64,000 nt of DNA from a bacterium (GTDB taxonomy: Bacteria > Cyanobacteriota > Vampirovibrionia > Gastranaerophilales > Gastranaerophilaceae), in assembly GCA_017941035.1 (NCBI GenBank), contig JAGAXG010000006.1, positions 1-64,000 on the forward strand. The letters run 5' to 3'. The notes beneath the pieces are model-generated. The model was not told where the DNA came from, did no database searches, and saw only the letters and a list, made by a program, of their open reading frames with translations. Position numbers and translations under genes: made by a program. Shown here piece after piece: positions 38,371-62,325 of the stretch. How positions within the stretch are numbered: the first letter of the stretch is position 1; each line of letters starts with the position of its first letter.

Positions 38371-38404
38371 TTCGTTTAATATGGAGTGTAACTCCGGATT
38401 AAAC
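38371..38404 (+). repeat. Hairpin repeat R3, copy 1
   Basis: TTCGTTTAATATGGAGTGTA and ACTCCGGATTAAAC form a stem with GGAGT/ACTCC inside GTTTAAT/ATTAAAC. Similar to 44056-44089 with about eight differences in 34 bases. Confidence 0.6.
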
Positions 38405-38490
38405 AAAAACAGATTTTTTTACAGACTTTTACCTAATTAATACGCTTGGGTTGGATATTCGGGTTGTTTCATATGTCCGATATTTGTTTA

Positions 38491-46277: not shown

Positions 46278-46279
46278 AT

Positions 46280-46558: not shown

Positions 46559-46616
46559 AGATAATATATTAACCGATTTTATTAAAAATGTCAATATATA
46601 GATAATATATTATCTA
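46559..46616 (-). promoter_or_regulatory. hipBA promoter and two operators
   Basis: Minus strand TTGACA (46594-46589), 17 bases, TAATAT (46571-46566), then seven bases to the ATG. Operator 1 TAGATAATATATTATCTA (46599-46616) is a perfect palindrome just upstream of the -35; operator 2, TTAATATATTATCTAT (46558-46572 region), is a near copy over the -10. Confidence 0.85.
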
Positions 46617-46619
46617 ATT

Positions 46620-47448
46620 ACGCAAACACACATCAAAGTTTTATTATGATGTATTTTTATCAACTTTTGACAAATTTTTCCAAGAAAAATTTCGTATGTA
46701 TTCCCTATGTCCGGATTTGACATAGGCATAGGTTATTATAATATTGTAAAAAAGACGTAAAGATTAAATTTTTGTATAGTTTTTCGGACACTTTTGAAAT
46801 TGGTTTTTGAGATGTTTAATCGCCGTGTTTGGCTTTGTGTTTGAGTTGTACCCGCTTCCCCTAGTCTGAGAGTCGGGGGTTTGAAAAGTCCGAAATGTCC
46901 GGTTATTAGGACTAAAATGTCCGGTATCTTTCCATAAAATTTTATAAAATTGCCAAGTTTCCCTATTATATTTGAGTTACAGTCGAGTGCAAAAAGCGGA
47001 CATTTTATGCAATTTGTTAATTAAAAATTATACTAAACTCGGAAGAGTCCAGTAAATTGTGCCTTTTAGAATTTTAATTATTTCGCATAATTCTACTATA
47101 TTCACCCCTAAGTCGGAAGTAATTTTTTAAGTGGGAAATCGCTTCCCTGACTTTATTTTTCAAATATTTTATCGAAACAAATTCCAAAACTTAAGAATGA
47201 GTTTTCCAAGACTAAGTGTAAAAAATATCAGATTAATTTTTACCCTATAAGACGGAAGCAGAATTGAGAGAAAATAGCAGATTATTGCAAAATCATGAAT
47301 TCAAACTGTGTTTAAATTGCGTTTAAAAGATGTTCAAAAGCAGTTTTATAAATTTTTTGCTTAAAATTCAGACATAATCGAACACAAAACAACACATTTC
47401 CCTCTAAATTCAATAAAATTGATAAAAATTAATATTAAAAACAAAAAT
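46620..47448 (+). other. Non-coding region with a cluster of GGACA/TGTCC words
   Basis: No gene is visible in this 830-base gap. It holds several copies of TGTCCG or CGGACA in both orientations (near 46709, 46783, 46896, 46915 and 46998), several embedded in AAAATGTCCGG. It also contains ACTCGGAAG and TAGTCGGAAG-like words near 47040 and 47115, similar to R2. The pattern could be protein-binding sites or a decayed repeat. I found no open reading frame of note. Confidence 0.5.
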
Positions 47449-48158
47449 TTATATTGCTGTTTCTTTTAATGTTGCACATTCAAATCCGCCCAAAGCACTC
47501 CAACACTGGTTACCTGGATGTCGTTGTTTTTTACCTAATTCATCAATATTTTGTTTATTTTCTATATCAAAACCAATATAAAAAAGATTTAATTTACATT
47601 TTCTAAGTATATTTTTAATTTTATTTATTTCTTCTGAATAATCATTTTCTTTACCATATCCCCAACCAATAACCACATCAGAATGTTTTCTGTTTCTAAA
47701 AATTTCTCTATAAATTTTAGATTATTTGCATTATCAAAATTTTTTAAGGATTTTTTATCTACTTCTGGGTTTCGACTTGAGAAGACATTTAAAATTTCCA
47801 TACAATTATAATTATATTTTTCATTCTTAATAAGATTATAACAATTTTGTATTGTACTATCTCTAAATTCAGGGCAGGCTTTACTTGGATTGAACAATAT
47901 AAAAATTATTGAATGTTCACTTGTCTTATTTGGAATTTGTTCGCAATAATATAAACGTTATTTATAAATAGTTTGTCCTAATTTTTTGCAAATAGTACTA
48001 TTTTTCTTTTTATCATAAACATCTTTTCCAAAAACTATAAAACCACAATTATACTTTAGCTGTTTAAAAATATAATTATCAAAGTTTGTACAATTAATAG
48101 GGTTCAATCGATATTTTTCAATACTTTTTACTAAATTCTCTATAATATTGTCATTCAT
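47449..48158 (-). pseudogene. DUF1643-like gene with in-frame stop and frameshift
   Basis: From ATG 48158 the frame reads MNDNIIENLVKSIEKYRLNP, then ends QTIYK at a TAA (47958). The same frame continues RLYYCEQIPNKTSEHSIIFILFNPSKACPEFRDST..., the LFNPSKA-type core of DUF1643. A one-base shift near 47670-47690 moves the frame to SDVVIGWGYGKENDYSEE and on to KQRHPGNQCW and the stop at 47449. The two interruptions suggest a recently inactivated gene. DUF1643 proteins occur near restriction and phage genes; function unknown. Confidence 0.75.
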
Positions 48159-48261
48159 AAAACCTCTCTTTGCTTAATATATTATAATCTATTTATTTAA
48201 GGTACACTTTTTAATAGTCAAATTTTTTGTTAATATGTAAATTAATTATAAAGGATAAAAT

Positions 48262-48855
48262 ATGGAAATAGTTGATTGTATAGAAAAATTAAAATCTGAA
48301 ATTAAGTATGCTTATAATGAAACCAAGAAAACTCTTGGAGACAATATATATCGTGGACATTCAAGAGCGATTAGTAGCGATATAGAAGATGGCATAGCAC
48401 TATTTATTTCAAGATTACAGCCAAGTTGCAAAATCTTTCTAGATCCATCAATTCATATTGACCATAAAACACATAGACCAGATTTATTGGTTATAAATAA
48501 TAAAAACGAAGTTATCGCGATGGTCGAAATTAAAGCAAATATGGGTTGGTGTCGAAATGCTTCTGGAGTTATCCAGAAAATTTTGTCTGAAGATCTTATA
48601 TTCAAGAATACAAGAACTATTAATTGTGAGTTTTCAAATAATAGAAGTTATGATACTAGTTATAGCAATAATGTAAAATTATTCTTAATCTCTTTAACTA
48701 AAGGAAATTGTTCTGATAAAAACCACAAATCAAACAAAGAATATGCTAATGCCAATAATGTATATCAATTTAACCTTTTTGACGGTTGGTATGATTCTTT
48801 AATTAATTGTGAAATAGAAGAGTTTGCAAAACAAATTAAAAACTTAGCTGTTTAA
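48262..48855 (+). CDS. PD-(D/E)XK-like nuclease candidate
   Basis: A 197-residue protein of unknown function. The central part RPDLLVINNKNEVIAMVEIKANMGW has the spaced Asp, Glu and Lys of a PD-(D/E)XK nuclease fold (D about 14 residues before E-x-K), seen in restriction endonucleases and repair enzymes. A C-terminal region has no motif I recognise. AAAGGATAAAAT precedes the ATG. It stands between a broken DUF1643 gene and hicAB in the defence-like region, which fits a restriction or anti-phage role, but that is an inference. Confidence 0.55.
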   Translation: MEIVDCIEKLKSEIKYAYNETKKTLGDNIYRGHSRAISSDIEDGIALFISRLQPSCKIFLDPSIHIDHKTHRPDLLVINNKNEVIAMVEIKANMGWCRNASGVIQKILSEDLIFKNTRTINCEFSNNRSYDTSYSNNVKLFLISLTKGNCSDKNHKSNKEYANANNVYQFNLFDGWYDSLINCEIEEFAKQIKNLAV

Positions 48856-48921
48856 GATTAATTTAAAAAAAATATTTCATTGTTGAAATGAATTATAATA
48901 TTTAAACTATAAGAACATTGC

Positions 48922-48949
48922 AAATCTATAATATATTTATTATAGATTT
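48922..48949. terminator. Possible bidirectional stem between 48855 and hicB
   Basis: AAATCTATAATA and TATTATAGATTT form a perfect 12-base AT-only stem between two convergent genes. There is no clear T-run, so terminator function is uncertain. Confidence 0.35.
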
Positions 48950-48970
48950 ATTGTCATGTTATAAAAAAAA

Positions 48971-49378
48971 TTATGCATTAGATAAATTCTTTAAAATATG
49001 ATTATAAAGCCTATTATCTTTATTTTCACTATCTTCTATAAAATTATTGAATATAGTAACAATTAATTTATTTAAACTTACATTCTCCATTTTAGCAATT
49101 TCTACTAATGTTTGATGAATTTCTGGAGTAGTTCTAATATTAAAAGTACCACTATATGTCTTTTGTGGTTCTTTACCAATTTCTTTACAAGTTTCTAAAT
49201 AATCATCTACCATATCATGAAAAGCTTTTTCTAGTTCTTCTATTGTATTACCTTCAAATGTAATTAAATCATCAATAAATAAAATTTTTCCAAAAAGGCA
49301 TTTATCTGTTAAATCATATTCAACAGAACCAATATAATTTTTATATTTTAAAACTTTGTCATTTTTCATATTAAACAT
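48971..49378 (-). CDS. hicB: HicB antitoxin
   Basis: A 135-residue antitoxin with an N-terminal RNase-H-like HicB domain (YIGSVEYDLTDKCLFGKILFIDDLITFEGNTIEELEKAFHDMVDDYLETCKEIG) and a C-terminal ribbon-helix-helix segment (FNIRTTPEIHQTLVEIAKMENVSLNKLIVTIFNNFI) that binds DNA. It inactivates HicA. The start overlaps the HicA stop by one base (TAATG), and a second in-frame ATG follows three codons later. Last gene of the hicAB operon. Confidence 0.9.
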   Translation of the reverse strand: MFNMKNDKVLKYKNYIGSVEYDLTDKCLFGKILFIDDLITFEGNTIEELEKAFHDMVDDYLETCKEIGKEPQKTYSGTFNIRTTPEIHQTLVEIAKMENVSLNKLIVTIFNNFIEDSENKDNRLYNHILKNLSNA

Positions 49379-49632
49379 TATATTAACCCATTCCTTTCTA
49401 GTTTTTCTATTATCTGATCGATTACATAACTTTTTATTATATTACCCGGATGAGGTTTATGGAACATTATTATATCATTAGAATTGTTTTTAAATCTTAC
49501 AGCAGAACCAGATGTTTTACCTGTCTTTAACTCTATGTATCCAAAACGTTTTAGAATCTGGACAAGTTCTTCATAGGTAAAATCCTTGGGTTTGCTTATA
49601 AATTTTTTTAGTAATTTGTCTACTTTTGTCAT
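49378..49632 (-). CDS. hicA: HicA mRNA interferase toxin
   Basis: An 84-residue dsRBD-like toxin with KKFISKPKDFTYEELVQILKRFGYIELKTGKTSGSAVRF and the catalytic histidine in MFHKPHPG. HicA cleaves mRNA and is neutralised by HicB. The gene has no Shine-Dalgarno sequence; the promoter's -10 TATACT ends six bases before ATG, so the transcript is probably leaderless. It lies 170 bases from the Mu-like transposase in the opposite direction. Confidence 0.9.
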   Translation of the reverse strand: MTKVDKLLKKFISKPKDFTYEELVQILKRFGYIELKTGKTSGSAVRFKNNSNDIIMFHKPHPGNIIKSYVIDQIIEKLERNGLI

Positions 49633-49638
49633 ACTAAT

Positions 49639-49667
49639 AGTATACTGTATATCGATATTTTTTGCAA
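49639..49667 (-). promoter_or_regulatory. hicAB promoter
   Basis: Minus strand TTGCAA (49667-49662), 17 bases containing the ATATCGATAT palindrome, TATACT (49644-49639), then six bases to the hicA ATG. HicB may bind the spacer palindrome. Confidence 0.65.
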
Positions 49668-49803
49668 CTATTTTTTAGTTGCAATTAAGTTTTGTTAATT
49701 TCTCATTTCTGACACACTCAGACACATTTCCCCCTCAAACACTTCCATTTTGAGAGAAAGCAGTCTAACATACAGTAGCTTCAATAATAAATAAGGATAC
49801 GGT

Positions 49804-51876
49804 ATGACAGACATTAATAATAATGATATTTGGATTGATGTTGAAACATTAGCGAAACTCAAAAACATTACCAGAAGAGCTGTTCGGCTTGCACTAAATC
49901 AAAATAAATATGAATACAAAGTAGAAAATATCAGAGGTGGCAAAACATACAAGATTAAATTATCAACGCTTGAAGAAGAGCTGCAGCTTAAATATTTTCA
50001 GGAATATTATGATGATTATAAAACGTGTGAGAACGAGGTCATTGAACTATCAAACCTCAATATAAAACAAGAAAAATTGATATCTGAAAACCAAAGAAAA
50101 ATCGCTCTTGCAAAATATGACCTGATTTATGCTTGGCTTGATTTTAGGAAAGAATATAAAAGGGACAAGCTCAAAGCCAATGGTAACATCCCCGATAAAG
50201 AATTCCTGCAATTATATAATACAGGGATGTTTCAGGAAGAGATTTTTAAGATTTTAGGTAAAGTCTCAATCGGCTCGCTTTATCGCTGGCGGGCATTATT
50301 AGATTACAACAAAGATTGGACGGCGTTAGTTGGGCAATATAAATATTCAACGCGTAAGGAATATAGAACAACTTTAAACGAGGAGCAGATTAAAATATTT
50401 ATACAAATTCTGCTGTCGCCTAGTGCGTTTTCAATAGGTAAAGCAATTTCACTCACAAAGCATATTCTAAAAGAACGCGGTCAGGAGATTTTACCCAAAG
50501 ATATTACATTCAGGCGGTATGCGGAGTGGTTCAGGGATAATAATTTCGATAAATGGACACTTGCAAGAGACGGCGAAAAAGCTCTAAAGGATAAAGTAAG
50601 CCCGTTTATAGTCAGAAACGCAGCACTTTTAAAAGCAGGGCAAGTGCTTGTCGCAGACGGGCATACACTTAACTTCCAAGTGATAAACCCGTTTACTGGC
50701 AAACCCTGCCGAGCAACTTTGCTTGGTTTCTTGGATTGGAAATCAGGAGGGCTTGTCGGATACGATATTATGCTTGAAGAATGTACGCAAAATATTGCAT
50801 CGGCTTTAAGAAACGCCATCTTAAAAATGGACCATATTCCTGAATATGTTTACCAGGATAACGGTAGAGCCTTTAAAAGCAAATTCTTCAATGGAGACAA
50901 AAAATTCGAGGAATTAGGATTTACAGGAGTCTATAACAAACTCGGAATAAAACCAGTCTATGCCACTCCATATAACGCTCGAGCCAAAGTCATCGAGCGT
51001 TTCTTTTTGGATTTTCAGGAAAGTTTTGAAAAACTTATTCCAAGCTACATTGGGACAAGCATCGAAAACAAGCCGGCATATTTGATGCGAAACGAGAAGT
51101 TACATAAAAATATCCATGAGAAATACAGTTTTACCCCGACAATAGAGCAGGCACTTAAAATGATAGATAAATGGCTTGAATTCAAACACTCGCAACCTTG
51201 TCCGAATGCTAAAGATAAAACAATTCAAGAGGTTTTAAATGAAGTTGAGAAAGAAAATATTGATGAAAATTCGTTGGATGATTTGATGATGGCACAAGAA
51301 ATTAAATCAATCGGTAGAAACGGAATAAGATTTTTAAAAGCTGATTATTTTGATGAATCATTATACGGAATTAAAGAAAAAACGGTTATAAAGTACAGCC
51401 TGTTTGACCTTTCCTATATAAAAGTCTATTCGATGAAAGGCGAATTTATATGTAAGGCAAACCGCATAACAGAAACGCATCCGCTTGCGTATCAAATGGG
51501 CGATATTAAAGATATTGAGGACTATAAGCAAAAGATTGAAAAACAACAAAAACTTCGCAGAAAAACAATTAAAGCAGTTCGGGAGCATTTCAACTTAGAG
51601 GATATGGATTATCTTGAAAAAGAATTAATGCAAAATATCCGCTTGCCTGAACCTGAGCCGATTAAAGAAATAACGGTTCAGGCTGAACCAAAGCCAAAGC
51701 AAGATTTTGAACCGAAGGTTAAAACTTCAATTGTTGCACGGCCAATATTTAAATCTTCTTATGAGCGCTATGAATGGCATATGCAAAATGGCTGTATCTG
51801 CCAAGAGGACAGAACTTGGCTAACAAATTACATAAAATCAGACGAATACAAAGAAATATACGGAAAGGAGCAGTAA
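49804..51876 (+). CDS. Mu-type DDE transposase
   Basis: Mu transposase family protein of 690 residues. The N-terminal helix-turn-helix (WIDVETLAKLKNITRRAVRLAL, about 10-31) binds DNA ends; an integrase-core DDE domain carries Asp 285 (VLVADGHTL), Asp 352 (YQDNGRAF) and Glu 398 (KVIERFF); a basic C-terminal region has coiled-coil character and would contact MuB. AAGGATACGGT precedes the ATG. The stop overlaps the next gene's start (TAATG). Confidence 0.9.
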   Translation: MTDINNNDIWIDVETLAKLKNITRRAVRLALNQNKYEYKVENIRGGKTYKIKLSTLEEELQLKYFQEYYDDYKTCENEVIELSNLNIKQEKLISENQRKIALAKYDLIYAWLDFRKEYKRDKLKANGNIPDKEFLQLYNTGMFQEEIFKILGKVSIGSLYRWRALLDYNKDWTALVGQYKYSTRKEYRTTLNEEQIKIFIQILLSPSAFSIGKAISLTKHILKERGQEILPKDITFRRYAEWFRDNNFDKWTLARDGEKALKDKVSPFIVRNAALLKAGQVLVADGHTLNFQVINPFTGKPCRATLLGFLDWKSGGLVGYDIMLEECTQNIASALRNAILKMDHIPEYVYQDNGRAFKSKFFNGDKKFEELGFTGVYNKLGIKPVYATPYNARAKVIERFFLDFQESFEKLIPSYIGTSIENKPAYLMRNEKLHKNIHEKYSFTPTIEQALKMIDKWLEFKHSQPCPNAKDKTIQEVLNEVEKENIDENSLDDLMMAQEIKSIGRNGIRFLKADYFDESLYGIKEKTVIKYSLFDLSYIKVYSMKGEFICKANRITETHPLAYQMGDIKDIEDYKQKIEKQQKLRRKTIKAVREHFNLEDMDYLEKELMQNIRLPEPEPIKEITVQAEPKPKQDFEPKVKTSIVARPIFKSSYERYEWHMQNGCICQEDRTWLTNYIKSDEYKEIYGKEQ

Positions 51877-52607
51877 TGAAAAAGGTCTTCGTAAAAACAA
51901 AAAATGTGAAACAGCTAATCTCGATGATGAACCGTCTGCGAGAAAGAGAAGACGGAGTTCCAGGAATGGGACTTGTTTATGGCGAACCTGGGCTTGGCAA
52001 AACTTATGCAATTACTTGGTGGGCGGCACAAAACGATGCAATACTAATCAGGAGTGCCAATCTTATGTCCGCTAGGTGGTTACTTGAAGAGATGGTTGAA
52101 GAGCTAGGGGAGATTCCTTATAACAAGTTCTCGGATATCTTCAATCAAGTGGTAGCACAATTAATCAAAACTCCAAGAACCATTATTGTAGATGAAACGG
52201 ATTATTTAACGATTGATTCTCGGGCAGTTGAAACGCTTAGGGACATTCACGATAAAACGAATGTCCCTATTGTTTTAGTCGGAATGGGTACGGCAAATAA
52301 AAGACTCCAACGGCATAAACATTTATACGATAGATTATTGGAAATTATAAAATTTGAACCGTTCTCAAAACAAGATATAACTTCAATAATCGACCAATTA
52401 TCAGAAGTCCCGTTTACGGATTGTGCCAAAAAGCTTTTATACATTCGCACAAATCGATTCAGGCAATTGGTAAAAACTATCAGTAAAGCAGAACAGGTCG
52501 CAAAATCAAACGGAATAAAGGAAATTGACGAAATAACTTTGAAGGAGGTGCTAAAAAATGACGATGCTGACGCAGAAGAAATTGAACTTACAAATGAAAA
52601 TTCTTAA
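51876..52607 (+). CDS. MuB-like AAA+ ATPase
   Basis: A 243-residue AAA+ ATPase with Walker A GEPGLGKT and Walker B RTIIVDETDYL. It binds target DNA and activates the transposase in Mu. From ATG 51876 the ribosome site GGAAAGGAGCAG is optimal; the longer reading from 51774 overlaps the transposase deeply. The C-terminal helical domain (LSEVPFTDCAKKLLYIRTNRFRQLVKTISKAEQ) is typical of MuB/TniB-type proteins. It overlaps the next gene by 50 bases. Confidence 0.88.
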   Translation: MKKVFVKTKNVKQLISMMNRLREREDGVPGMGLVYGEPGLGKTYAITWWAAQNDAILIRSANLMSARWLLEEMVEELGEIPYNKFSDIFNQVVAQLIKTPRTIIVDETDYLTIDSRAVETLRDIHDKTNVPIVLVGMGTANKRLQRHKHLYDRLLEIIKFEPFSKQDITSIIDQLSEVPFTDCAKKLLYIRTNRFRQLVKTISKAEQVAKSNGIKEIDEITLKEVLKNDDADAEEIELTNENS

Positions 52608-53802
52608 AATAGCAAAGGGGCTTAATAAATTTACTCTGTCTGACATTCTGCCAATGCTTGAAGAAAATGAAAAAACAATTCAAAAAGCACTTAATGATTT
52701 GGAAAATTTGAATCAAATTAAAAAGATATCAAATACAGAATATTTATACACGAATTTTAAAAAGCGTGTGAATAAACCTCTCCCCACAAGCCAAAGCAGC
52801 GATTCAGATATTTGGCTCACAATACCCGAGGTCGCTCGGCTGCTAAATATTCAGGAAGAAACGGTAAAAAGGAATTGCCTTAAAGGAAATTATGTAGTAA
52901 AACCTAACAAAGAGCCTGATTTAGAGGGGAAATATTTAATCAAACGCTCGTCATTAAAACTCTACGATTTTTTAGAAGATTCAGAACGGCGTGCGATGGA
53001 TAAAGAAGTCAAGAAACTTTTCCACAATAAAGAGGAAGAACGTTTGTATGTTGTGGCTTCGGACAGAGGCAAAGAATTTATATACAGATATCTGAAACTT
53101 TTTAAACTCACAGAAGGTATGAATTGCAGAGAATTGCGGAGCTTTTTAGAAATAATCCCTTTAAAGAATCCAAAGCTAAAGGTTTCATATTCTGCGTTTC
53201 ATTCCAAACGTAAAAAGTACCAAACAGAAGGTATGATGGGAATATTCCCCAAATATTTTATGCCGGATAATAAAAGCGAAGAACCTGAAGTCCGCAGGAA
53301 TTTAAACCGCCTGCCGAAAGTATATAACTTAGCAACAACAGAACAAATTGAGATTATTTATAAATGCTTTTGCTTCGGGATTCCGGCTTCTCAAACCGCA
53401 AAAATCGCAAATATGGGAAATACAACAACGGAGACTTTTTATCAATATATTCGTGCAAGAATTTTTGATAAACAATATCAGGAGTTGGTTGAACATTTTG
53501 ACTCTAACCCTCAAATCCCGCAAGTCAGGATTTTTATGAACGATGTTTCAGTATGCCTTTATTGCTACAATGACAAAGTTTTCATTACACAGAAACCTCT
53601 AAAAACAAAGTTGCCCCAGAGACGTCAGCAGCCTGATGAAGTCAAAGAAGCACGCAGAATGTATAACATTCTTTACCGTAAAAAATTTATGGCAAGTATG
53701 CGGAAATACCTAGACCACCACCTAGCCGTATTCTTATGGAAAGAACTCAACCCCAACTTTGAAGATCAGCTGAACCTAATTTATGAGATGATACATATAT
53801 AA
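52558..53802 (+). CDS. HTH DNA-binding protein of the Mu-like module
   Basis: A 414-residue protein whose gene overlaps the MuB-like gene by 50 bases; GGAGGTG precedes its ATG by six to seven bases. A winged-helix N-terminus (FTLSDILPMLEENEKTIQKALNDLENLNQIKKIS, about 26-60) is followed by an excisionase/MerR-like HTH (DIWLTIPEVARLLNIQEETVKRNCLKGNYVV) that resembles the transposase N-terminus. The rest has helical and basic regions; EARRMYNILYRKKFMASMRKYL is near the C-terminus. It probably acts in transposition or its regulation. Confidence 0.65.
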   Translation: MTMLTQKKLNLQMKILKIAKGLNKFTLSDILPMLEENEKTIQKALNDLENLNQIKKISNTEYLYTNFKKRVNKPLPTSQSSDSDIWLTIPEVARLLNIQEETVKRNCLKGNYVVKPNKEPDLEGKYLIKRSSLKLYDFLEDSERRAMDKEVKKLFHNKEEERLYVVASDRGKEFIYRYLKLFKLTEGMNCRELRSFLEIIPLKNPKLKVSYSAFHSKRKKYQTEGMMGIFPKYFMPDNKSEEPEVRRNLNRLPKVYNLATTEQIEIIYKCFCFGIPASQTAKIANMGNTTTETFYQYIRARIFDKQYQELVEHFDSNPQIPQVRIFMNDVSVCLYCYNDKVFITQKPLKTKLPQRRQQPDEVKEARRMYNILYRKKFMASMRKYLDHHLAVFLWKELNPNFEDQLNLIYEMIHI

Positions 53803-53822
53803 TTTTTTAATTTTTCACTATT

Positions 53823-55670
53823 TCATTCTTTAAATATTTTAATATTAGCAACATTTTCTTCTTGCAGCAATACAAAAAACTCGTTAATTGAATCTTTCTT
53901 TTGCTCTGGATATCTCAAGCCCGAACGCACATTTGAAAAAGTAAAAGTTACAGAACATTTTGCTCTTGATAAAGCAACAAAAAATGCACACCTATCCTCT
54001 TCTGGCTGATTTTTAAAATTCCAAAAAGCAGAATCTTCCAGTCCAACAAAATATACAGCAGAGTATTCCAAACCCTTGCTTTTATGTATAGTCATAATAG
54101 GAATAGAATTTAATCCACAGAAATCATCGATAGCTTTTTGCCAATTTTGATTTGCTGTTTCAAACTCTATATTAAAAAGTTCAATGAATTTATCTAATAT
54201 TGTATCAAAATAATTCCCTTGACTATAAACTGGGAAATATGCTTTTATGCGATTTGTATCCAAAAAGGATTTTATAGTATTAATAATTTCAGATATATTA
54301 CATTTTTGTTCTATCATATTTTTCAAATTATTTTTCAAATCAAAAATTTGGTTTTGCAACTCTTCATACGTGGTATTATTATCACTATTAATACTAAAGA
54401 TATTAATGATACATTCCTTAATTGTTTCCCATTTCTGTGCCTGTTTTATATTTATTGAACAAGAAACAATATCCAAAATAAGTTGTATTATAGGTTCTTT
54501 AATCAAGTCCTGATATTCAATTTCAATTCTTGCACGGATACCTTTTTCTTTTAATGCTTTTTCAATTGCCTGACTATAATCTTGCGGTCTTTGTTTACAT
54601 AAAAGACAAATATCATTAGGTTCTATACCATTGCAAATTTTTTTATAAATATCATTAGCAATTGCGTCTGCTTCAAGCATTTCATTATCTGAAATAAAAA
54701 GATTAATTTCGCCATCAGAAGGATTCCATTTATTAGAACATTTAATATCTAGATCTACTTCTTGTAAAGATTCATACATTTTTCTTTGAAGCTCAACTAA
54801 TTTTGGCGCAGATCTATGATTCATTAATAGCACTTTTGTAGCAGCCTTAAATTCATCACTATATATTTCAAAAACATTTTTCATTGCTCCTGCCCAAACC
54901 ATAATACGTTGTTTATTGTCGCCAACAGCAGTTATTATAGAATTTGACTCTAAAAAGCAATCTTTGATAAATTTATATTGTAAATCAGTAGTATCCTGAA
55001 ATTCATCTAAAAACACATGACTATATGTTTTTTGTATTGCTAATTTAATTTGTTCATTTGTAAGTATTATATAATCTGCTAATTTATTAATCATTTTAAA
55101 AGTAAGAGTAGCCTTGTGATTATCAAATCCTTTGAGTAATAAAGGCCAGATTTTACTTCCAAATTCATCTGGATTTAGAGGTATAGTGGTATCTTTAAGA
55201 GGTTTATCATAATATCTGTAAAACTTACTTTTTGCGGTTCCATTATGTAATACTCCTTGTCTAACAAAAGCTTTATCAATTACATCAAAATCTTCCACTA
55301 AATAATTGGAATTTGGTCTTAATTCATTTGGTAAAGCATAGAGAAAATGGTCTAAAATTCTTTTAAAAAAAGCATCATATGTCATAGATGAGAATCTTGA
55401 TTTCGCATCTTGTCCACATCGTTTTTCAACTCTTTCTTTCAAATTTTGTGCAGAATCCGTCTTAAAACTAATTGCTAATATTTTTTTGGGATCTTTACAG
55501 AGATTTGTTTGTAAAAGATAAGTAGCTTTTTGTGCCAATAATTCAGTTTTACCCGCTCCTGGTCCAGCTATTACTAAAATATTATTTTGAGATATTACAG
55601 ATTGTTTTGCAGATTCTTCAAGAATAATACCATCACTTGGTTGCCAAATTTCTTTATTAATTATTTTCAT
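53823..55670 (-). CDS. gajB: Gabija GajB, UvrD-like helicase
   Basis: Superfamily 1 helicase/NTPase of 615 residues. Motifs: Walker A GPGAGKTELL (36-45), ISFKTDSAQNLKERV, DEFQDTTDLQYKFI (Walker B region), MNHRSAPKLVELQ, and SKGLEYSAVYFVGLEDSAFW (motif V). In Gabija, GajB hydrolyses ATP/GTP and activates GajA to cleave phage DNA. It begins five bases after the gajA stop; both are on the minus strand. B. cereus GajB is shorter (about 494), so there is extra sequence in the middle. Placement after the gajA-type gene makes the call firm. Confidence 0.88.
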   Translation of the reverse strand: MKIINKEIWQPSDGIILEESAKQSVISQNNILVIAGPGAGKTELLAQKATYLLQTNLCKDPKKILAISFKTDSAQNLKERVEKRCGQDAKSRFSSMTYDAFFKRILDHFLYALPNELRPNSNYLVEDFDVIDKAFVRQGVLHNGTAKSKFYRYYDKPLKDTTIPLNPDEFGSKIWPLLLKGFDNHKATLTFKMINKLADYIILTNEQIKLAIQKTYSHVFLDEFQDTTDLQYKFIKDCFLESNSIITAVGDNKQRIMVWAGAMKNVFEIYSDEFKAATKVLLMNHRSAPKLVELQRKMYESLQEVDLDIKCSNKWNPSDGEINLFISDNEMLEADAIANDIYKKICNGIEPNDICLLCKQRPQDYSQAIEKALKEKGIRARIEIEYQDLIKEPIIQLILDIVSCSINIKQAQKWETIKECIINIFSINSDNNTTYEELQNQIFDLKNNLKNMIEQKCNISEIINTIKSFLDTNRIKAYFPVYSQGNYFDTILDKFIELFNIEFETANQNWQKAIDDFCGLNSIPIMTIHKSKGLEYSAVYFVGLEDSAFWNFKNQPEEDRCAFFVALSRAKCSVTFTFSNVRSGLRYPEQKKDSINEFFVLLQEENVANIKIFKE

Positions 55671-55675
55671 TGTAT

Positions 55676-57715
55676 TTAACCTTTTAATATAGATTTTGCT
55701 TTATTAAATATTTTAGAAAAAACATCTGGTAAATTTGCTTTTATGTTTTCTTCAGGTATAGACGATAGCATTAACATGTGAGTAGTCGGTTTGCCTCTGT
55801 TTAAGAAAAAGTAATTATACCAAATCATAAGTTCTTTTTGTTTTTCACTGTAAGTTTCTCCACTTCCACCTTTTTCTTTGAGTGAATTTTTTACATCTTT
55901 AGAAATCCTGTCCTTAAATTCATTGCTAGATTTTTCTTCTTCACTAAGATCTTTGATTTTTTTACAATTTTCACCAATTTTTATTTCAGGACCTTCTTTG
56001 TTTTCTAAAGTATTTTTATAATATTCTTGATAATTTTCAAGCATTAAAAAATCTATATCTAATGGTTCTGAAAAATATATATTATATTTTTCTAAATGTT
56101 GTAGCCAATTTCTTATTTTTTTATCATCATTTTCCCATTCAGGCATATTATCAAAATCGGTTTCTGGTAATACATTTCCGTTTCTAAATTTAAAAAGGTC
56201 ATTGTATTCATAACCAATATTTAATAGCTGCTGAAAAGCATAATGTATTCGTCCCCAACCACCCCCGAATCGTTCTTTATCAAAATCCAAAAGAGTAATA
56301 TATGGTATTTTTAGATTATCTAACAAACGCCAAAAATGATTAACATGCTTACCACCAAGAGGAACTATGGATATTTCACTTAAATCAATATCTCCATTAT
56401 ACTTTTCCCACAATTTTGACAATATTAATTCTTCGCTATCACCTTCACCCAAAATAACGAGTTTTGCAAAATATAATTCGGGATATGCTTTAACGGCTTC
56501 TTTTACATATTTATATTGCTCATCTGTTTTATTTGGTAAAGTTATACTACAAACATTAGTGTATCCTATGTCGTCTACTCTAAAATAACGTACTTGAGAT
56601 GGTTCAATTCTTTTGATTATGGAAGCAGAATGAGATGTTATAATTGTTTGAGCATTATTTTTATCTGCAATATTTTTTAAGTTATTTACTAATCTCCCAA
56701 GTAAATGTGGTGCTATATGGTTTTCAGGTTCTTCTACTGCCATAATGGTCAAAACAGGTAAATTTTTATTAAAAGATATGTTCTCTGAATCAGTTTCTAT
56801 TTCTTTTTTGATTGTGCTTTCAATATTTAAAATACTATCTATTAATGAAATGTAGAACAAAGATTTTAATCCATCGCTCATTTGATCAACAGTATAATCA
56901 TTTCCTGTTTCAGTTGGGCTAAAAACAACGTCTGCTCTTCTTATAGAGGTTTCAATATCTGCACTATTAAATTTTAATGCTACATTTTTATACTTTTCAT
57001 TTGTGTCGTAATTTTTCCAGCGTTTATCTAAAGAATCATTTAATATTTTAACACCTTGTTCTGCTTCAAATTCAGAATTTAATTCTTCAATCTTTGATTT
57101 AATATTATTTCGCCTTTCATCTTTCCAATTAATACTATTAATAAGTTGATACATCATAGCTCCGGATGTGTTTTTAAGCTGTTTTGAAGGATCCCTAACA
57201 GCAGGTACATATATGACCCTAATTTTATCTAAATCTCGCCTTTGCGCATTAACATAATCTTTATCTTCTATTTCTGCAGATTCTGGGCAAGTAATGTATC
57301 TAATCTGATAATCTATCGCACCTTCAATAGTATTGCTTTTTTCCCAAGTTGCATCCAATCTAACACGTATATATGGAATGCCATCAGGAGTATCTACAAT
57401 TACATGCTCAAAAAATTGTGGTATAGAGTCATCTTCTTCGCCTTCTCGTATATTTTTAAATTCAAAAACAGCTTCAATATACATTTTTTGTTCTGTCATA
57501 TTTTCAGGTAGTGTATTTTGGGGGACATAAAAATCACTACGTCTTATATTTCTATCACTTGTAAATTCTGAAAACATACAATTTAGTGCTGCTAATGCCG
57601 CTGTTTTTCCGGTACTATTACTTCCAATAAATGTTGTTAAATCATCAATTGTAATAATATGTTCTTTTTCTCCAAAACAACGAAAGTTAAATAACTTTAT
57701 TTTACTTAGTCTCAT
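55676..57715 (-). CDS. gajA: Gabija GajA, OLD-family ATPase-nuclease
   Basis: A 679-residue protein from ATG 57715 (AAGGAATG upstream). The N-terminal ABC/SMC-like ATPase has Walker A GSNSTGKT (31-38) and the late EEPENHIAPHLLGRL segment; the C-terminal TOPRIM domain carries ILGEGDSEELIL and LLDFDKERFGGGWGR. GajA is a sequence-specific nickase/nuclease in Gabija, held inactive by nucleotides and released when phage depletes them. Larger than B. cereus GajA (about 578). Divergent from the Mrr gene 137 bases away, suggesting the three genes form one defence unit. Confidence 0.88.
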   Translation of the reverse strand: MRLSKIKLFNFRCFGEKEHIITIDDLTTFIGSNSTGKTAALAALNCMFSEFTSDRNIRRSDFYVPQNTLPENMTEQKMYIEAVFEFKNIREGEEDDSIPQFFEHVIVDTPDGIPYIRVRLDATWEKSNTIEGAIDYQIRYITCPESAEIEDKDYVNAQRRDLDKIRVIYVPAVRDPSKQLKNTSGAMMYQLINSINWKDERRNNIKSKIEELNSEFEAEQGVKILNDSLDKRWKNYDTNEKYKNVALKFNSADIETSIRRADVVFSPTETGNDYTVDQMSDGLKSLFYISLIDSILNIESTIKKEIETDSENISFNKNLPVLTIMAVEEPENHIAPHLLGRLVNNLKNIADKNNAQTIITSHSASIIKRIEPSQVRYFRVDDIGYTNVCSITLPNKTDEQYKYVKEAVKAYPELYFAKLVILGEGDSEELILSKLWEKYNGDIDLSEISIVPLGGKHVNHFWRLLDNLKIPYITLLDFDKERFGGGWGRIHYAFQQLLNIGYEYNDLFKFRNGNVLPETDFDNMPEWENDDKKIRNWLQHLEKYNIYFSEPLDIDFLMLENYQEYYKNTLENKEGPEIKIGENCKKIKDLSEEEKSSNEFKDRISKDVKNSLKEKGGSGETYSEKQKELMIWYNYFFLNRGKPTTHMLMLSSIPEENIKANLPDVFSKIFNKAKSILKG

Positions 57716-57851
57716 ATACACATTCCTTATATTAATCATGCTAAAAGCATTGTGAATACTAAATTTATTATAATACAAGAAGTGATATTTTTATTATGGA
57801 AATATATCCGATCCATGTTTGTGATAACCTAAAAAGAAAAAGGAGTTAGAC

Positions 57852-58757
57852 ATGGCTGTACCTGATTTTCAATCATTAATGAATCCTGTTTTAAATTTAT
57901 ATGAAAAGAAAAACATAGAGTTACGCCCACGTGATATCGAAGATGAAATTGCTAAATTATTCAATTTATCTGAAGAAGATAAAAATCAAATGATACCTAG
58001 CAATATTGAAACTATTCTTCGCAACCGCGTTAATTGGGCAGTCTATTACTTATTCAGAGCTGGATTATTAGATAGACCTAAAAGAGGTTATTATAAAATT
58101 AGTGAGGCTGGTGTTCAGGAAAATAAAACAGGGAATAAGATAAATATTGGGTACTTAAAGAAATTCCCATCTTTTGTAGATTTTTCAAATATTGAAAATA
58201 AGAAAAATTCTGATGCGGAGGACATTATCGAAACTGATGAATGTCAAACTCCTGATGAAATGATATCAAAAGCGCAAGCTTTATATTCTGATAATCTTCA
58301 AAGCGAACTATTAGAAAAATTAAAACAAGTTGATCCTGTTAAATTTGAAAAAATAGTCTTACAACTTATGGAAAAGATGAATTATGGCATCGGGTCTATG
58401 ACAAAAATGAGCCATGATGGTGGTATCGACGGAATCATTGACGAAGATGAATTAGGTCTTGAGAAAATTTATCTTCAAGCAAAAAGATATTCAGATAATA
58501 AAGTTAATGAAAAGGAAATGCAAAATTTTGCTGGAGCACTTGGCTGTTCAACCGTACGTAAAGGTGTATTTATAACTACAAGTTTTTTCGATGAAAAAGC
58601 AAAACAAAAAGCTGCTTCTGTTCAGGGAAAAGTAATAAGACTCATTAATGGTGATGAACTAACAAAATTAATGATAAAACATAATGTTGGTGTTCAGCCT
58701 AAAACGACAATAGAAATTAAAAAACTTGATGAAGATTTCTTTGTTGATGAAGGTTGA
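57852..58757 (+). CDS. mrr: Mrr-type restriction endonuclease
   Basis: A 301-residue protein. Residues 1-110 resemble the Mrr N-terminal winged-helix domain (LNLYEKKNIELRPRDIEDEIAKLFNLSEED); residues 160-270 are the Mrr catalytic domain with GGIDGIIDEDELGLEKIYLQAKRY, where D and QAK take the PD-QxK form, plus VRKGVFITTSFF. Mrr enzymes cut methylated DNA. AAAAGGAG precedes the ATG. Divergent from gajA; possibly part of the same defence unit. The convergent gene 58758 starts one base after its stop. Confidence 0.9.
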   Translation: MAVPDFQSLMNPVLNLYEKKNIELRPRDIEDEIAKLFNLSEEDKNQMIPSNIETILRNRVNWAVYYLFRAGLLDRPKRGYYKISEAGVQENKTGNKINIGYLKKFPSFVDFSNIENKKNSDAEDIIETDECQTPDEMISKAQALYSDNLQSELLEKLKQVDPVKFEKIVLQLMEKMNYGIGSMTKMSHDGGIDGIIDEDELGLEKIYLQAKRYSDNKVNEKEMQNFAGALGCSTVRKGVFITTSFFDEKAKQKAASVQGKVIRLINGDELTKLMIKHNVGVQPKTTIEIKKLDEDFFVDEG

Positions 58758-58991
58758 TTACATTCTTTCTATATACCAGTTACTATTTCCAAAATGATTG
58801 AAATTCCAATGTAATTCAAAATAAAAATTAAACTCCAAAGAATTATCATCTTTGAAGTTCCAAGAATATTTATTTAGTTGGGTTTTGCGGTAACTTTCAA
58901 ACGCGTTCTGAATTTCTTTTGCAAATTTTGTTCTGAATTCAGAATACGGAATGTCTAACTTTTCTTTAGTCAATTTATTTTTCAAAATCAT
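58758..58991 (-). CDS. Small hypothetical protein
   Basis: A 77-residue protein from ATG 58991, preceded by AGAGGG at seven bases; a longer frame goes back to 59066 but lacks a site. Highly polar, with KEIQNAFESYRKTQLNKYSWNFKDDNSLEFNFYFELHWNFNHFG near its end. No family recognised. It is the last gene of a three-gene minus-strand set (59391-58758) with small overlaps, which is typical of phage or transposon accessory genes. Confidence 0.5.
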   Translation of the reverse strand: MILKNKLTKEKLDIPYSEFRTKFAKEIQNAFESYRKTQLNKYSWNFKDDNSLEFNFYFELHWNFNHFGNSNWYIERM

Positions 58992-59175
58992 CTTCAAACC
59001 CTCTAATATTATCAAGTTCGATATTGTATCGCTTGCCGGTTTTATCAACGCAAGTTGCAAAATCAACTGTTTTATCAGCGAATTTGTTTTCCCATAAGCA
59101 AATCAGCAAACCGATTTCTTGTGTTTTAAGATTTAAAATCTTTGTCCCGTACAACTTGTAATCTTTTTCAACCAT
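58975..59175 (-). CDS. Small hypothetical protein
   Basis: A 66-residue protein that overlaps the next gene by 17 bases and starts three bases after the previous one, so the three small genes are translationally coupled. It is mixed alpha/beta with two cysteines (LLICLWENKFADKTVDFATCVDKTG). No family recognised; the arrangement is typical of phage early genes. Confidence 0.5.
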   Translation of the reverse strand: MVEKDYKLYGTKILNLKTQEIGLLICLWENKFADKTVDFATCVDKTGKRYNIELDNIRGFEDDFEK

Positions 59176-59178
59176 AGG

Positions 59179-59391
59179 TTAACCTTTCGTTATTGTGATA
59201 TCAGCGTATATCTCGTCCGGCTTATCTGGGTCAATCAAAAAATCTTTATCAAATACATATCTTTCGCCATCCGGTGCGACGCAGCCGACAATATTGTTCT
59301 CGCCAAAACAAAGAACTGTAAACTCTTCGCTATCTTTTTCAAACCAACCTTTTAGCTTTTTTAATCTGTACTTTTTGCCAATTTCAATCAT
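59179..59391 (-). CDS. Small hypothetical protein, KOW/SH3-like
   Basis: A 70-residue, beta-rich protein (GKKYRLKKLKGWFEKDSEEFTVLCFGENNIVGCVAPDGERYVF), shaped like a small SH3-like barrel. GAAAGGAGCATACT precedes the ATG. It heads the set of three small minus-strand genes. Divergent from the gene at 59552; the 160 bases between hold no gene and probably the promoters for both directions. Confidence 0.5.
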   Translation of the reverse strand: MIEIGKKYRLKKLKGWFEKDSEEFTVLCFGENNIVGCVAPDGERYVFDKDFLIDPDKPDEIYADITITKG

Positions 59392-59551
59392 AGTATGCTC
59401 CTTTCAAGCTACACTATTCATCGCTCTTTTAGTGCAAAACATCAACTCTAAATCTCGAAATCGTATCATACAGACACATTTGGGACTTGATGTTTCTGCG
59501 AATCAGAGTTATCCTGTGTGTACCAAAACTTTATTTACCCCGAGGTTAATT

Positions 59552-60007
59552 ATGAAAAAACAAACATTGGCACAAGATGCCTTTAAACTTTATTCTGAAA
59601 AATTTATGTCATTAGAAGATATCGCAAGACAACTTCATTTAAACGAAAGAACGCTCCGCCGATGGAAAAAGTCTGATGATTGGGAAACCAAAAGAGCTGA
59701 ATATCTTCGGACTAAAACGACCTTGCATTCGGATTTATATGATTTTACACGAAGTTTGATAAATTCTATCGAGAAGGATATGGAGAATAATGGTAAAGTC
59801 GAGCCTGCAAGATATTACGCGGTTACTAAAATGCTGAAATTGATTGGACCGATTAAATCTTATGAGGATGAAGTGATAAGTGAAAAACAAAAGCTCAAAG
59901 AGGAAAAGCCGAAAGGTTTAACGCCGGATGTTATACGAGAAATTGAGGAACAAATTCTCGGCATAACACACGAAGAAATTTGTGAATACGATTTGAACAC
60001 CGATTAA
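59552..60007 (+). CDS. Mu-like phage protein, HTH/terminase-small-subunit type (DUF1804-like)
   Basis: A 151-residue protein from ATG 59552. The N-terminal helix-turn-helix (AQDAFKLYSEKFMSLEDIARQLHLNERTLRRWKKSDDW) is followed by a helical region (TKTTLHSDLYDFTRSLINSIEKDMENNGKVEPARYYAVTKMLKLIG) like DUF1804 proteins of Mu-like phages, often annotated terminase small subunit. It supports a phage-like origin for this segment. Head, tail and large terminase genes are missing, so the element is at best a remnant or a satellite. Confidence 0.65.
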   Translation: MKKQTLAQDAFKLYSEKFMSLEDIARQLHLNERTLRRWKKSDDWETKRAEYLRTKTTLHSDLYDFTRSLINSIEKDMENNGKVEPARYYAVTKMLKLIGPIKSYEDEVISEKQKLKEEKPKGLTPDVIREIEEQILGITHEEICEYDLNTD

Positions 60008-60025
60008 ACACCTTTTAAACGGTAT

Positions 60026-60247
60026 TTAAATTTCGACATCTTTTTCGTGGTCTATAAAAAATGCATTTAAAACATCTGCATCATTACGCAAATGCTTTAC
60101 TACTGGTGCAAGATTATAACACTCTTCTATCTCTAGCTGATTTGCCACAAAATAATCAATAACAACCGCTGTGTTATAAATATTCTCCGACCACTTGCTT
60201 AATTGCTTAAACTCTTTTGGAGTAATATTCAATCCGACTTTTTCCAT
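60026..60247 (-). CDS. Small hypothetical protein
   Basis: A 73-residue, mostly helical protein (EFKQLSKWSENIYNTAVVIDYFVANQLEIEECYNLAPVVKHLRNDADVLNAFFI) with AAAGGAGG as ribosome site. No family recognised; resembles small helper proteins found beside phage genes. Convergent with the HTH gene at 59552 and probably transcribed alone. Confidence 0.5.
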   Translation of the reverse strand: MEKVGLNITPKEFKQLSKWSENIYNTAVVIDYFVANQLEIEECYNLAPVVKHLRNDADVLNAFFIDHEKDVEI

Positions 60248-60300
60248 ACGACCTCCTTTAACGTGTCGTATTCATCACTCAAAGTCATATACAAATCAAG

Positions 60301-61701
60301 TTAAATTTGCAAATATACACATTCACTACAGGGTTTAAGTTCTAATTGATTTGTAATAGTTGAATAATAAAGATCGTAGAATTTGAAATCTTTAATTTTC
60401 TCTTTTTGACAATGTTTTAGTATGATTTTTATGATTTTGAGTTTATTTTCAGAAGAAACTTTTCGCCCAAAAATTATTGCATCTAAATCTTTTATTTTAT
60501 ATTTTGCGATAATTCCTTTTTCGCTTTGGTTGATATTTAAACTATCTCTTAAAAAGAGTCGATATTCATCTTCATGAATCCAATTTTTTGATTTGGTACA
60601 AATATATTCTTTTGCTTTTTTATGATATTCTTCTCTCCATTCTGTTATATTTTTATATTTTTCGCAGCAAATGCTATACCTTGTTCTATCATAATTGCAT
60701 AACCAAAAATCTTTTATAAGATTATATTGTAAGCAGCCCAAAGAGCCAAAGAAATCAATTTCCGGGTAATTAGTGGAATAAATCACCTTATAGAAATCTA
60801 ATTTTTGATAGCCGTATTTTTCACTAATTGGACACATGTCTATTTGATTTTTACTAGTTTTGAATCGCAAACAAATACCATTTTCACTATTAGCATAGTG
60901 TCCCCACATTGGTTCATTTGTATAATTTGTTGTAAAACAAGCTATATAATGATTTTCATACAATAATCTTTTTATTCTATTTAAATAAATTTCTGGGAAT
61001 TCAAAAGATAATATATTTATATTATTCGTATCTCTACTCTTATGCTTATTATTTAAAAATTTTTGAATGGATATTCGTTCTAGATCTTTTTTATTTATCA
61101 AATCAATTATTTCTTGTTTTGTTGTTTTTGGATTATTAAGAATTTCAATTAATTCAGCATATTCGTTGTTGTATTTTACAGAATCATAAATTTCTTTATG
61201 TTCTTTATCTTTAAAAACATCAATACCTCTATCAAATCTTTTAAACATAGAATCAACGACAAAATATGCAAATGAATGTATTGTTTTTAGAATAAGTAGT
61301 ATCTCATCAGCGGTATATTTTTTATTTGATTCAGACATTTTTATCGGTAAATTTGATATTCCTTCAGGGGCAAAAAATTCATAGTATATAGATTTAAATG
61401 TTGTTTCCATTTCTGGTTTTTCATTTATATCAACAGCTAAAAATACCGGTAATAAACCTGGATCAATTTTCTGCTTTCGGTTTCTTATACTTGCATCATA
61501 ATAAACACTTGATAAAACATACAAATAGTGCTTAAAAAGCCCTCGAAATGCTATTTCATCGCCTTGCCAGAATATATTCATATAATCTTCCATTTGATCA
61601 TTAAGTTCATCTGATTTGGCAAAATATATTTCAAGATTTTCTAATTCTTTAAAAGTATATGAACTGTCAAGAGATCTGTATCGATATAGATATTCTGTCA
61701 T
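60301..61701 (-). CDS. DUF2971 family protein
   Basis: A 466-residue protein. The start YLYRYRSLDSSYTFKELENLEIYFAKSDELNDQMED and the later ACFTTNYTNEPMWGHYANSENGICLRF are DUF2971 signatures. The family has no established activity and is common beside phage-defence genes. Its first part (about 1-250) is helix-rich, the second contains the beta-rich conserved core. Ends at 60301, convergent gap with 60247. Position between Mu-like/Gabija genes and HNH/hsdR supports a defence link, which is inference only. Confidence 0.82.
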   Translation of the reverse strand: MTEYLYRYRSLDSSYTFKELENLEIYFAKSDELNDQMEDYMNIFWQGDEIAFRGLFKHYLYVLSSVYYDASIRNRKQKIDPGLLPVFLAVDINEKPEMETTFKSIYYEFFAPEGISNLPIKMSESNKKYTADEILLILKTIHSFAYFVVDSMFKRFDRGIDVFKDKEHKEIYDSVKYNNEYAELIEILNNPKTTKQEIIDLINKKDLERISIQKFLNNKHKSRDTNNINILSFEFPEIYLNRIKRLLYENHYIACFTTNYTNEPMWGHYANSENGICLRFKTSKNQIDMCPISEKYGYQKLDFYKVIYSTNYPEIDFFGSLGCLQYNLIKDFWLCNYDRTRYSICCEKYKNITEWREEYHKKAKEYICTKSKNWIHEDEYRLFLRDSLNINQSEKGIIAKYKIKDLDAIIFGRKVSSENKLKIIKIILKHCQKEKIKDFKFYDLYYSTITNQLELKPCSECVYLQI

Positions 61702-61784
61702 AAAACTCCTTTTGTTTAATTATAACCTAAATTAAAAAGCAGAGGGGATATCTCCCCACTGCCCTATATATTTTATATGCAAAA

Positions 61785-62117
61785 TCACCAAGACTTCTGC
61801 TTATAGATATTTTTTGTACCTTCAGATGATATAGATGTTTCAAATCTAGGATAATCATCGCCCTTTGTACAGTTATTATGCCATTGCAAAGCTTGAAGAT
61901 TATCAACATTATCCGAACCACCTTTTGATTTTGGTATAATATGATCAATTTCCCATCCATAATTCGTATCATTGGAACGATTACCATAACTACCATAATT
62001 CATCCAAGCGCCAGCAATATCTTTTCGCCAAACAGCTGCATCATTTGCAGAATCTTTTTGAGCTTTTGCCCATACTTTGAGTTTTACGTCCTCCGACCAA
62101 TTTTCGTTATAAAACAT
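61785..62117 (-). CDS. HNH endonuclease
   Basis: A 110-residue protein from ATG 62117 with AAGGAGA upstream. The C-terminal half has WEIDHIIPKSKGGSDNVDNLQALQWHNNCTKGDDYP, the D-H ... N ... H/N core of an HNH nuclease. The N-terminal half (WSEDVKLKVWAKAQKDSANDAAVWRKDIAGAWMNYG) probably binds DNA. It lies downstream of hsdR and upstream of the DUF2971 gene on the minus strand. May be a stand-alone restriction or homing nuclease. Confidence 0.85.
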   Translation of the reverse strand: MFYNENWSEDVKLKVWAKAQKDSANDAAVWRKDIAGAWMNYGSYGNRSNDTNYGWEIDHIIPKSKGGSDNVDNLQALQWHNNCTKGDDYPRFETSISSEGTKNIYKQKSW

Positions 62118-62230
62118 TTTAAATGTCTCCTTAAAAACTTGCATCACAAATTAGCCACAATGTCCGAAAGCAACAATTTTGCTTTTATGGCAATTTGTAA
62201 TATAATATTTGTACAAAAAAATATTTTTAG

Positions 62231-62272
62231 AGTGTTTTGTTATTGGACATCAATATTAAAACACTTTTTTTT
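62231..62272. terminator. Possible terminator between hsdR and the HNH gene
   Basis: AGTGTTTT (62231-62238) and AAAACACT (62258-62265) with T-runs on the plus side (TTTTTTTT) and several A/T on the minus side. Long 19-base loop; the effect on minus-strand transcripts from hsdR is uncertain. Confidence 0.3.
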
Positions 62273-62325
62273 GCCCCAACCTCCATACCCCTATCTACAT
62301 TTCCATCTTCTTTACTCCTTTCTTC

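Follow-up and report, generated by a model that had tools for sequence, protein, structure and literature searches.

A Gabija system and an mrr gene lie directly behind a Mu-like transposition module in the DNA analysed here, which raises the question of whether the transposition genes and the defence genes belong to one mobile unit. The window, i.e. the whole stretch of DNA that was analysed, is 64,000 nucleotides long and covers positions 1-64000 of a source contig of 73,901 bp, from a genome of 1.8 Mb. The first-pass annotation had proposed a Mu-like element with a multi-gene defence cargo at 49804-60247. We observed that the ends of an element lie outside the transposase and the gaj/mrr genes on both sides, which agrees with this proposal. 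The genes of the interval were confirmed, but the element reaches further, to 46775 on the left and 71315 on the right. We consider it very likely that this is a modular Mu-type transposon, related to the Mu-like phages of Gastranaerophilales, that carries a defence island.

The transposition genes are of the Mu type

The MuA-type transposase, the MuB-like ATPase and the third DNA-binding protein that had been annotated were all present and intact, as judged from profile matches and motifs. TnpA matched the Mu transposase C-terminal domain (4.5e-13) and, over its full length, the PHROG transposase family 310 (6.7e-91). The catalytic triad of the MuA-family DDE transposases (D285, D352, E398) is intact, and a sequence search of solved structures with tnpA gave no match. 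The adjoining tnpB encodes a MuB-type AAA+ ATPase with Walker A and Walker B motifs; it matched PHROG 296 'DNA transposition protein' (6.8e-48) and the solved TnsC and MuB chains. The best matches of the transposition genes are Mu families. The combination of a TnsB-type transposase with TniQ/TnsD that marks Tn7-like elements was not found, and tnpA, tnpB and tnpC had no match to TniQ/TnsD in Pfam or NCBIfam.

In some sister copies and phages TnpC is longer (508-595 aa), and MuA-like helix-turn-helix domains are followed by a tyrosine-recombinase domain (Pfam, PHROG). A predicted model of the 508-aa form (pLDDT 75) matched the Tn1549 integrase, XerA, lambda integrase and XerH (best E 3.4e-8). 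In the alignment, the arginines, the HxxR motif and the tyrosine of active recombinases were not conserved, as judged by eye, and the long TnpC should therefore not recombine. The TnpC of the window (414 aa) has kept the DNA-binding half, and the tyrosine-recombinase domain is absent. The C-terminal half of its AlphaFold model was poor (mean pLDDT 62), with no significant fold match. In Tn6022, a dead tyrosine-recombinase protein, TnsF, has been proposed to select the target (PMC10293859), and one MuA paralogue of CasMu-I is inactive (PMC10910872). On the strength of these two parallels, TnpC, a DNA-binding accessory, probably helps to choose targets.

TnpA was found at full length, with 97-98% amino acid identity, in nine related species. 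Its close relatives were found in metagenome-assembled genomes under the labels Candidatus Gastranaerophilales or Melainabacteria; many are from gut and rumen, and one is named Candidatus Scatousia. The dN/dS values of tnpA (0.022), tnpC (0.049) and the small conserved gene C4 (0.028) indicate purifying selection. Two element contigs (L158 and L188) were filed as 'uncultured Acinetobacter sp.' metagenome assemblies; these are probably mislabelled or contaminated bins.

Recurring ends enclose the transposition and defence genes

When relatives were compared, the left end, TAT[A/G]GTTTTTCGGACAC, started sharply at 46775, and the DNA preceding it differed from genome to genome. The copies in genomes G015, G022 and G026 have another left-end sequence with the same genes. 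The TGTCCG/CGGACA repeats of the left block are presumed to be transposase-binding sites. The right end is a repeat closing ...CTTCCGGGGGTACTTTTCTCAATCTCTCTGATAAT[C/T]TACA (also given as ...TCTCTGATAAT[C/T]TACA), which lies past the last cargo genes and always has the orientation of the element. A scan with the right-end pattern gave 41 occurrences in 15 of the 46 genomes, and the reversed control pattern gave 0. Both ends recur in many related species with differing outside flanks, all compared loci being from draft metagenome-assembled genomes.

The element runs from 46775 to contig position 71315 (L002:11315) and is 24,541 bp long (~24.5 kb). Enclosed between its ends are HicBA, the MuA/MuB-type transposition genes, Gabija and Mrr, a small conserved block and a type I restriction-modification cluster (Table 1). 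The genes outside the interval first annotated are HicBA and the 197-aa gene on the left, and DUF2971, HNH and hsdR/S/M on the right.

Table 1. Features of the element in the window
Feature	Position	Strand	Basis
Whole element, windowed part	46775-64000	+	end comparison among relatives
Left end (TATAGTTTTTCGGACAC...) and conserved left block	46775-47408	+	end comparison; repeated TGTCCG/CGGACA motifs
Cargo slot 1	48262-49632	.	gene comparison; empty in several relatives
197-aa gene (slot 1)	48262-48855	+	ORF
HicB-like antitoxin (slot 1)	48971-49378	-	profile match
HicA-like toxin (slot 1)	49378-49632	-	profile match
tnpA, MuA-type DDE transposase, 690 aa	49804-51876	+	Pfam/PHROG matches, motifs
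tnpB, MuB/TnsC-type AAA+ ATPase, 243 aa	51876-52607 (longer ORF from 51774)	+	PHROG, structure chains
tnpC, accessory DNA-binding protein, helix-turn-helix, 414 aa	52558-53802	+	profile matches
gajB, UvrD-like helicase of Gabija, 615 aa (slot 2)	53823-55670	-	PADLOC 3.7e-217, full length
gajA, OLD-type ATPase/TOPRIM nuclease of Gabija, 679 aa (slot 2)	55676-57715	-	PADLOC 7.9e-256, full length
mrr, type IV restriction endonuclease, 301 aa (slot 2)	57852-58757	+	mREase_IV 1.3e-70
Right block start: C5 (58758-59066), 66-aa ORF (58975-59175), C8 (59179-59391)	58758-59391	-	conservation
C3, terminase small subunit homologue, 151 aa	59552-60007	+	profile matches, prophage comparison
C4, small conserved gene, 73 aa; right block end	60026-60247	-	conservation
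Cargo slot 3	60301-64000, runs on to contig 70995	-	profile matches
DUF2971 protein (slot 3)	60301-61701	-	PADLOC candidate PDC-S31
HNH endonuclease (slot 3)	61785-62147	-	profile match
Type I R subunit, hsdR (slot 3)	from 62326	-	profile match

A right end placed immediately after C4 (~60307) was rejected, because in all copies the genes past C4 behave as variable cargo, and the right end that the copies share is located further out. A left-end-like inverted repeat was not found at the right side of the element, and a scan gave no target duplication that is followed by a common 14-bp end. The intergenic repeats also suggested an integron, a reading that was dropped because they are right ends and right-end remnants.

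We also observed a repeat of ~190 bp with a tRNA-like stretch (GGTTCGGGTCCAACC) at 71356-71541 of the contig, C45 (L002:11356-11541), and again at 38207-38409. The repeat is found downstream of several right ends; it had no match in Rfam, which also gave no meaningful match near 71.3 kb. Three more right ends, in the same orientation, are present in the window at 33706, 38015 and 43519, amid ordinary genes (transporters, NERD-domain and others). No left end or transposase is near them, and they are remnants of earlier insertions or unknown short elements. A hipBA pair (45171-46594) adjoins the left end, with the same neighbour in G023, and in G012 hipBA lies next to a right end in the opposite orientation. 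The region upstream of hipB therefore looks like an insertion hot spot.

Target duplications were observed in related copies

A 5-bp target duplication, which the first-pass annotation had led us to look for, was seen in a relative with the same ends as the window copy. This copy, in G021 (20,258 bp), has TAAAA on both sides. Its flanks, when rejoined, gave the uninterrupted right end of another copy, and the G021 copy was therefore inserted inside a resident right end. Two elements of a sister class (tnpA 55-62% identical) also have exact 5-bp duplications, ACTCA in G012 (17,644 bp) and ATAGT on contig C39 of the window's own genome. These three elements thus have the defined ends and the 5-bp duplication of a Mu-type element.

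The window copy itself is flanked by TTTTG (left) and GTCCG (right), with no matching duplication at its ends, and the copies of its class in G012, G023 and G024 also had no target duplication at theirs. A TATAA duplication in G026 was rejected, because the DNA after its right end recurs in other genomes from the junction on and looks like the left end of another element. Only one of the six window-class copies with both ends therefore has a duplication. An empty site for the window copy, sought as its joined flanks, was not present in the 46 genomes; the search for terminal repeats and an empty site had thus yielded recurring ends but no empty site. The mismatched flanks, the lack of an empty site, the single duplication in six copies and the draft state of the metagenome-assembled genomes count against a transposon. 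The DNA after the right end of the window copy is the inside of a second right-end type. The copy may have been inserted into a resident right end, with later recombination between copies.

In the sister class, all 7 distinct left ends were located a few tens of bases past a tRNA or tmRNA gene, on its downstream side. The neighbours are Leu (twice), Gln, Ala, Arg and tmRNA (twice), at loci L005 (in the window's own genome), L019, L020, L021, L024, L049 and L050.

The cargo varies in three slots around a conserved backbone

The backbone consists of the left block, tnpABC, the right block (C5, C8, the terminase small subunit and C4) and the right end. Three slots lie between these parts: from the left end to tnpA, from tnpC to the right block, and from the right block to the right end. 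Slot 2 of the window holds a complete Gabija system, in which GajA (OLD ATPase-TOPRIM) adjoins GajB (UvrD-like helicase) and the motifs are intact. The arrangement that had been annotated is correct: gajB-gajA are full-length on the opposite strand, with gajB beginning 20 bases past the tnpC stop, and the divergent mrr gene is intact. Past the window, slot 3 goes on with hsdS, two hsdM genes and an N6-methylase/specificity protein of 544 aa.

Comparison with relatives had been suggested as a check, and it showed that the gaj/mrr slot varies where the transposase module is kept. The slot 2 cargo switches exactly at the tnpC stop codon and at the edge of C5, with TnpA remaining 97-98% identical. 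Among 65 related loci, gajBA with mrr was seen again in L140 and L144, gajBA in L142 (an incomplete locus), and mrr without gajBA in L143, L152, L188 and L191. We scanned 20 other slot proteins, and the matches included McrBC, GmrSD-like and LA2681-like HEPN proteins, a distant GajA, PADLOC candidates PDC-S01, S11 and S53, HEC-05/06 and a PD-Lambda-5-like protein, as well as restriction or methyltransferase proteins. Some of the 20, among them a macro-domain protein and a DUF4186 protein, had no defence match. Most of the recognisable cargo is, by its sequence matches, predicted to be antiviral. The commonest slot 2 gene encodes a 118-aa DUF4186 protein (L146:14815-15171, ~20 loci).

The right block was 84-90% identical to that of the window in copies where the tnpA DNA was only 66-69% identical, and this indicates mosaic exchange. 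Cargo is exchanged in the three slots, and the probable route is homologous recombination in which the conserved blocks of stacked copies pair with each other.

Some ends are stacked in the ends of resident copies

In 11 of 42 distinct right ends, the DNA directly past the closing ...ACA is a piece of a further right end with the same orientation; the opposite orientation was seen 0 times, and the random control gave 1 in 6000 positions. On the left side, 10 of 35 ends (one of them weak) are preceded by pieces of family ends, as compared with 78 of 3000 random positions (p = 2.5e-8). These cases are not fully independent events, since the ends share descent. Roughly one end in four thus sits inside an end of a resident copy, and the target sites are non-random, both here and at the tRNA/tmRNA sites of the sister class.

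Immunity is a property of Mu, and not a requirement for the MuA/MuB class. Mu and Tn7 normally avoid DNA close to their own ends (PMC2837660; PMC8987985). Such avoidance was not seen among these right and left ends, and landing in the ends of one's own family is the opposite of Mu/Tn7 immunity. Either the family ends themselves or a site close by, at which copies accumulate, could be the preferred target. With swappable sets of antiviral genes on board, the element may allow whole defence islands to travel and pile up as a unit.

The element is related to Mu-like phages and keeps a terminase small subunit

A complete Mu-like prophage is present on contig C33 of G015. Its left part has tnpA (47% identical), tnpB and tnpC; a second MuA/MuB-like pair is also present, as are genes for lysis, tail fibres, tail, terminase, portal and the head region. 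Mu-type portal genes were found in 4 of the 46 genomes of the genus. The clade of the window's tnpA (72-78% identity) itself includes phages (L169, L173, and L197, the last one from IMG/VR) that have genes for tail collar, tail-fibre assembly and endolysin. In the tnpA tree, phages and cargo elements interleave (three changes for phages, two for elements), several inner branches being weakly supported. The Mu-like phages of the genus (G015:C33, loci L202 and L076; and G000:C10, locus L048) seemingly have two transposase modules in tandem, an element-like tnpA-tnpB-tnpC and then a second MuA/MuB-like pair (25-33% identical).

Structural phage genes had been reported as absent, and we likewise saw no homologue of capsid, portal, tail or large-terminase proteins in the copies whose two ends were both found; the head, tail, portal and large-terminase genes of a Mu-like prophage do not lie between these ends. 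When the structural and packaging proteins of the prophage were compared with all loci, the window-class cargo elements matched only the terminase small subunit. This gene had been annotated as DUF1804-like. The gene exists, though with a likely start at 59552, and the name terminase small subunit homologue suits it better. It is 40% identical to the small terminase of the G015 prophage, whose gene adjoins the large terminase, and a sequence search of solved structures gave no match. The description of the element as a transposon rather than a prophage holds in so far as virion genes are lacking, but it is too simple, since the element is phage-related and keeps the terminase small subunit.

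The kinship with Mu-like phages and the kept terminase small subunit are a hint of a phage satellite. A transposable satellite would have its own Mu-type transposase and spread between cells in the particles of Mu-like helpers; its terminase small subunit would recognise the element and dock on the large terminase of the helper, and its cargo would fight competing phages. Virion genes are absent and this one packaging gene is present in 22 of 22 distinct window-class copies with a sequenced right block (hand count), with a median dN/dS of 0.09, i.e. under purifying selection. Its C-terminal motif KGLTPDxxxxIExxxLGI is common to the phage homologues, with 12-14 of 18 residues identical as against ~40% overall. 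The portal genes of the genus also fit a satellite. There are parallels in the type 1 SaPIs, which encode their own TerS, and in PmCI172, a satellite-like island that shares its strain with a Mu-like prophage (PMC6893505). However, no capsid-size or other piracy genes were recognised, no window-class copy was seen in IMG/VR in one peptide-seeded scan, the motif is only a putative dock for the large terminase, and the terminase small subunit homologue could be a DNA-binding regulator. We therefore hold the satellite as a tentative proposal. It is compatible with a modular transposon and goes one step beyond it. A satellite that inserts preferentially in the ends of its own family (in the sister class, at tRNA/tmRNA genes), so that islands stack and are reshuffled by recombination, is possible.

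A decaying Mu-like prophage, which had lost its virion genes and gathered defence genes by chance in one place, is improbable. The phages with tail and lysis genes that interleave with cargo elements in the tnpA clade would fit such decay, but the same genes and ends are found in many species, tnpA, tnpC, the terminase small subunit and C4 are under strong purifying selection, and the duplications and varied flanks show movement after the loss of the virion genes. A chance neighbourhood, i.e. a chromosomal defence island beside an unrelated transposase, with gaj/mrr outside the mobile unit, is very unlikely: the region is variable in genes, hipBA lies beside the left end and solo right ends lie amid ordinary genes at 33-44 kb, but in many species conserved element modules flank gaj/mrr on both sides, and the right end is found past the type I cluster, which largely contradicts it. 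Chance is ruled out by the modules and ends, which recur unchanged in kind across many species.

A probable modular Mu-type transposon with a defence cargo

The modular transposon remains the reading that we favour. TnpA (the DDE transposase) and TnpB (the AAA+ ATPase) would act on the left end (TATRGTTTTTCGG...) and the right end (...CTCTGATAATYTACA) and insert the whole stretch. This would yield a 5-bp target duplication, as seen in related copies and as expected from the biochemistry of Mu. Gabija, Mrr and the type I system would protect the cell, and thus the element, from phages and other mobile DNA, as is known for their families.

With its defined ends, fixed backbone and interchangeable cargo, the element is a concrete vehicle for the movement and growth of defence islands in an uncultured gut lineage. 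The one packaging gene that was kept links Mu-like phages, cargo transposons and phage satellites. Landing in the ends of the own family makes the growth of islands by stacking testable, and slots flanked by conserved DNA offer a simple route to unknown defence genes in this lineage.

Comparison with known systems

In the searchable open-licence papers we found no account of Mu-type elements whose defence slots are modular, whose terminase small subunit stands alone or whose ends are stacked. Tn5053/Tn402 are 'res-site hunters' that prefer sites within other mobile elements. The present element likewise uses sites in mobile elements, but these are the ends of its own family and not res sites, and no serine resolvase was found.

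Defence cargo on Tn7-like transposons is already known (Benler et al. 2021, PMC8649781). These are alike in their DDE transposase and AAA+ ATPase, their defined ends and a cargo with Gabija and restriction systems, and TnpB resembles TnsC of Tn7 as well as MuB. The present element differs in its MuA-type transposase, in having no recognised TniQ/TnsD, in its phage-derived terminase small subunit and in its three cargo slots.

CasMu elements are Mu transposons with CRISPR, in which CasMuC is an inactivated MuA paralogue (Altae-Tran et al. 2023, PMC10910872). They share MuA, MuB and a third protein with the element, whose TnpC has MuA-like DNA-binding domains. In contrast to CasMu, the element has a general defence cargo and no recognised cas genes, and the TnpC of sister copies has a dead tyrosine-recombinase domain. 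TnsF of Tn6022 (PMC10293859) is similar to the 508-aa sister TnpC in being a dead tyrosine-recombinase fold that serves as an accessory of a DDE transposon. However, the N-terminus of TnpC has MuA-like helix-turn-helix domains and not zinc fingers, and the 414-aa copy of the window is without the recombinase part.

The SaPI/PICI satellites resemble the element in the absence of virion genes, in a single terminase small subunit of their own and in a defence cargo. The element differs from them in using DDE transposition and not a tyrosine or serine integrase, and it has no recognised piracy genes. The Mu-like phages (phage Mu and the G015 prophage) have homologous tnpA (47%), tnpB, tnpC and terminase small subunit genes; the elements are without their head, tail, portal, large terminase and lysis genes and measure 20-25 kb, as compared with ~37 kb for the phages.
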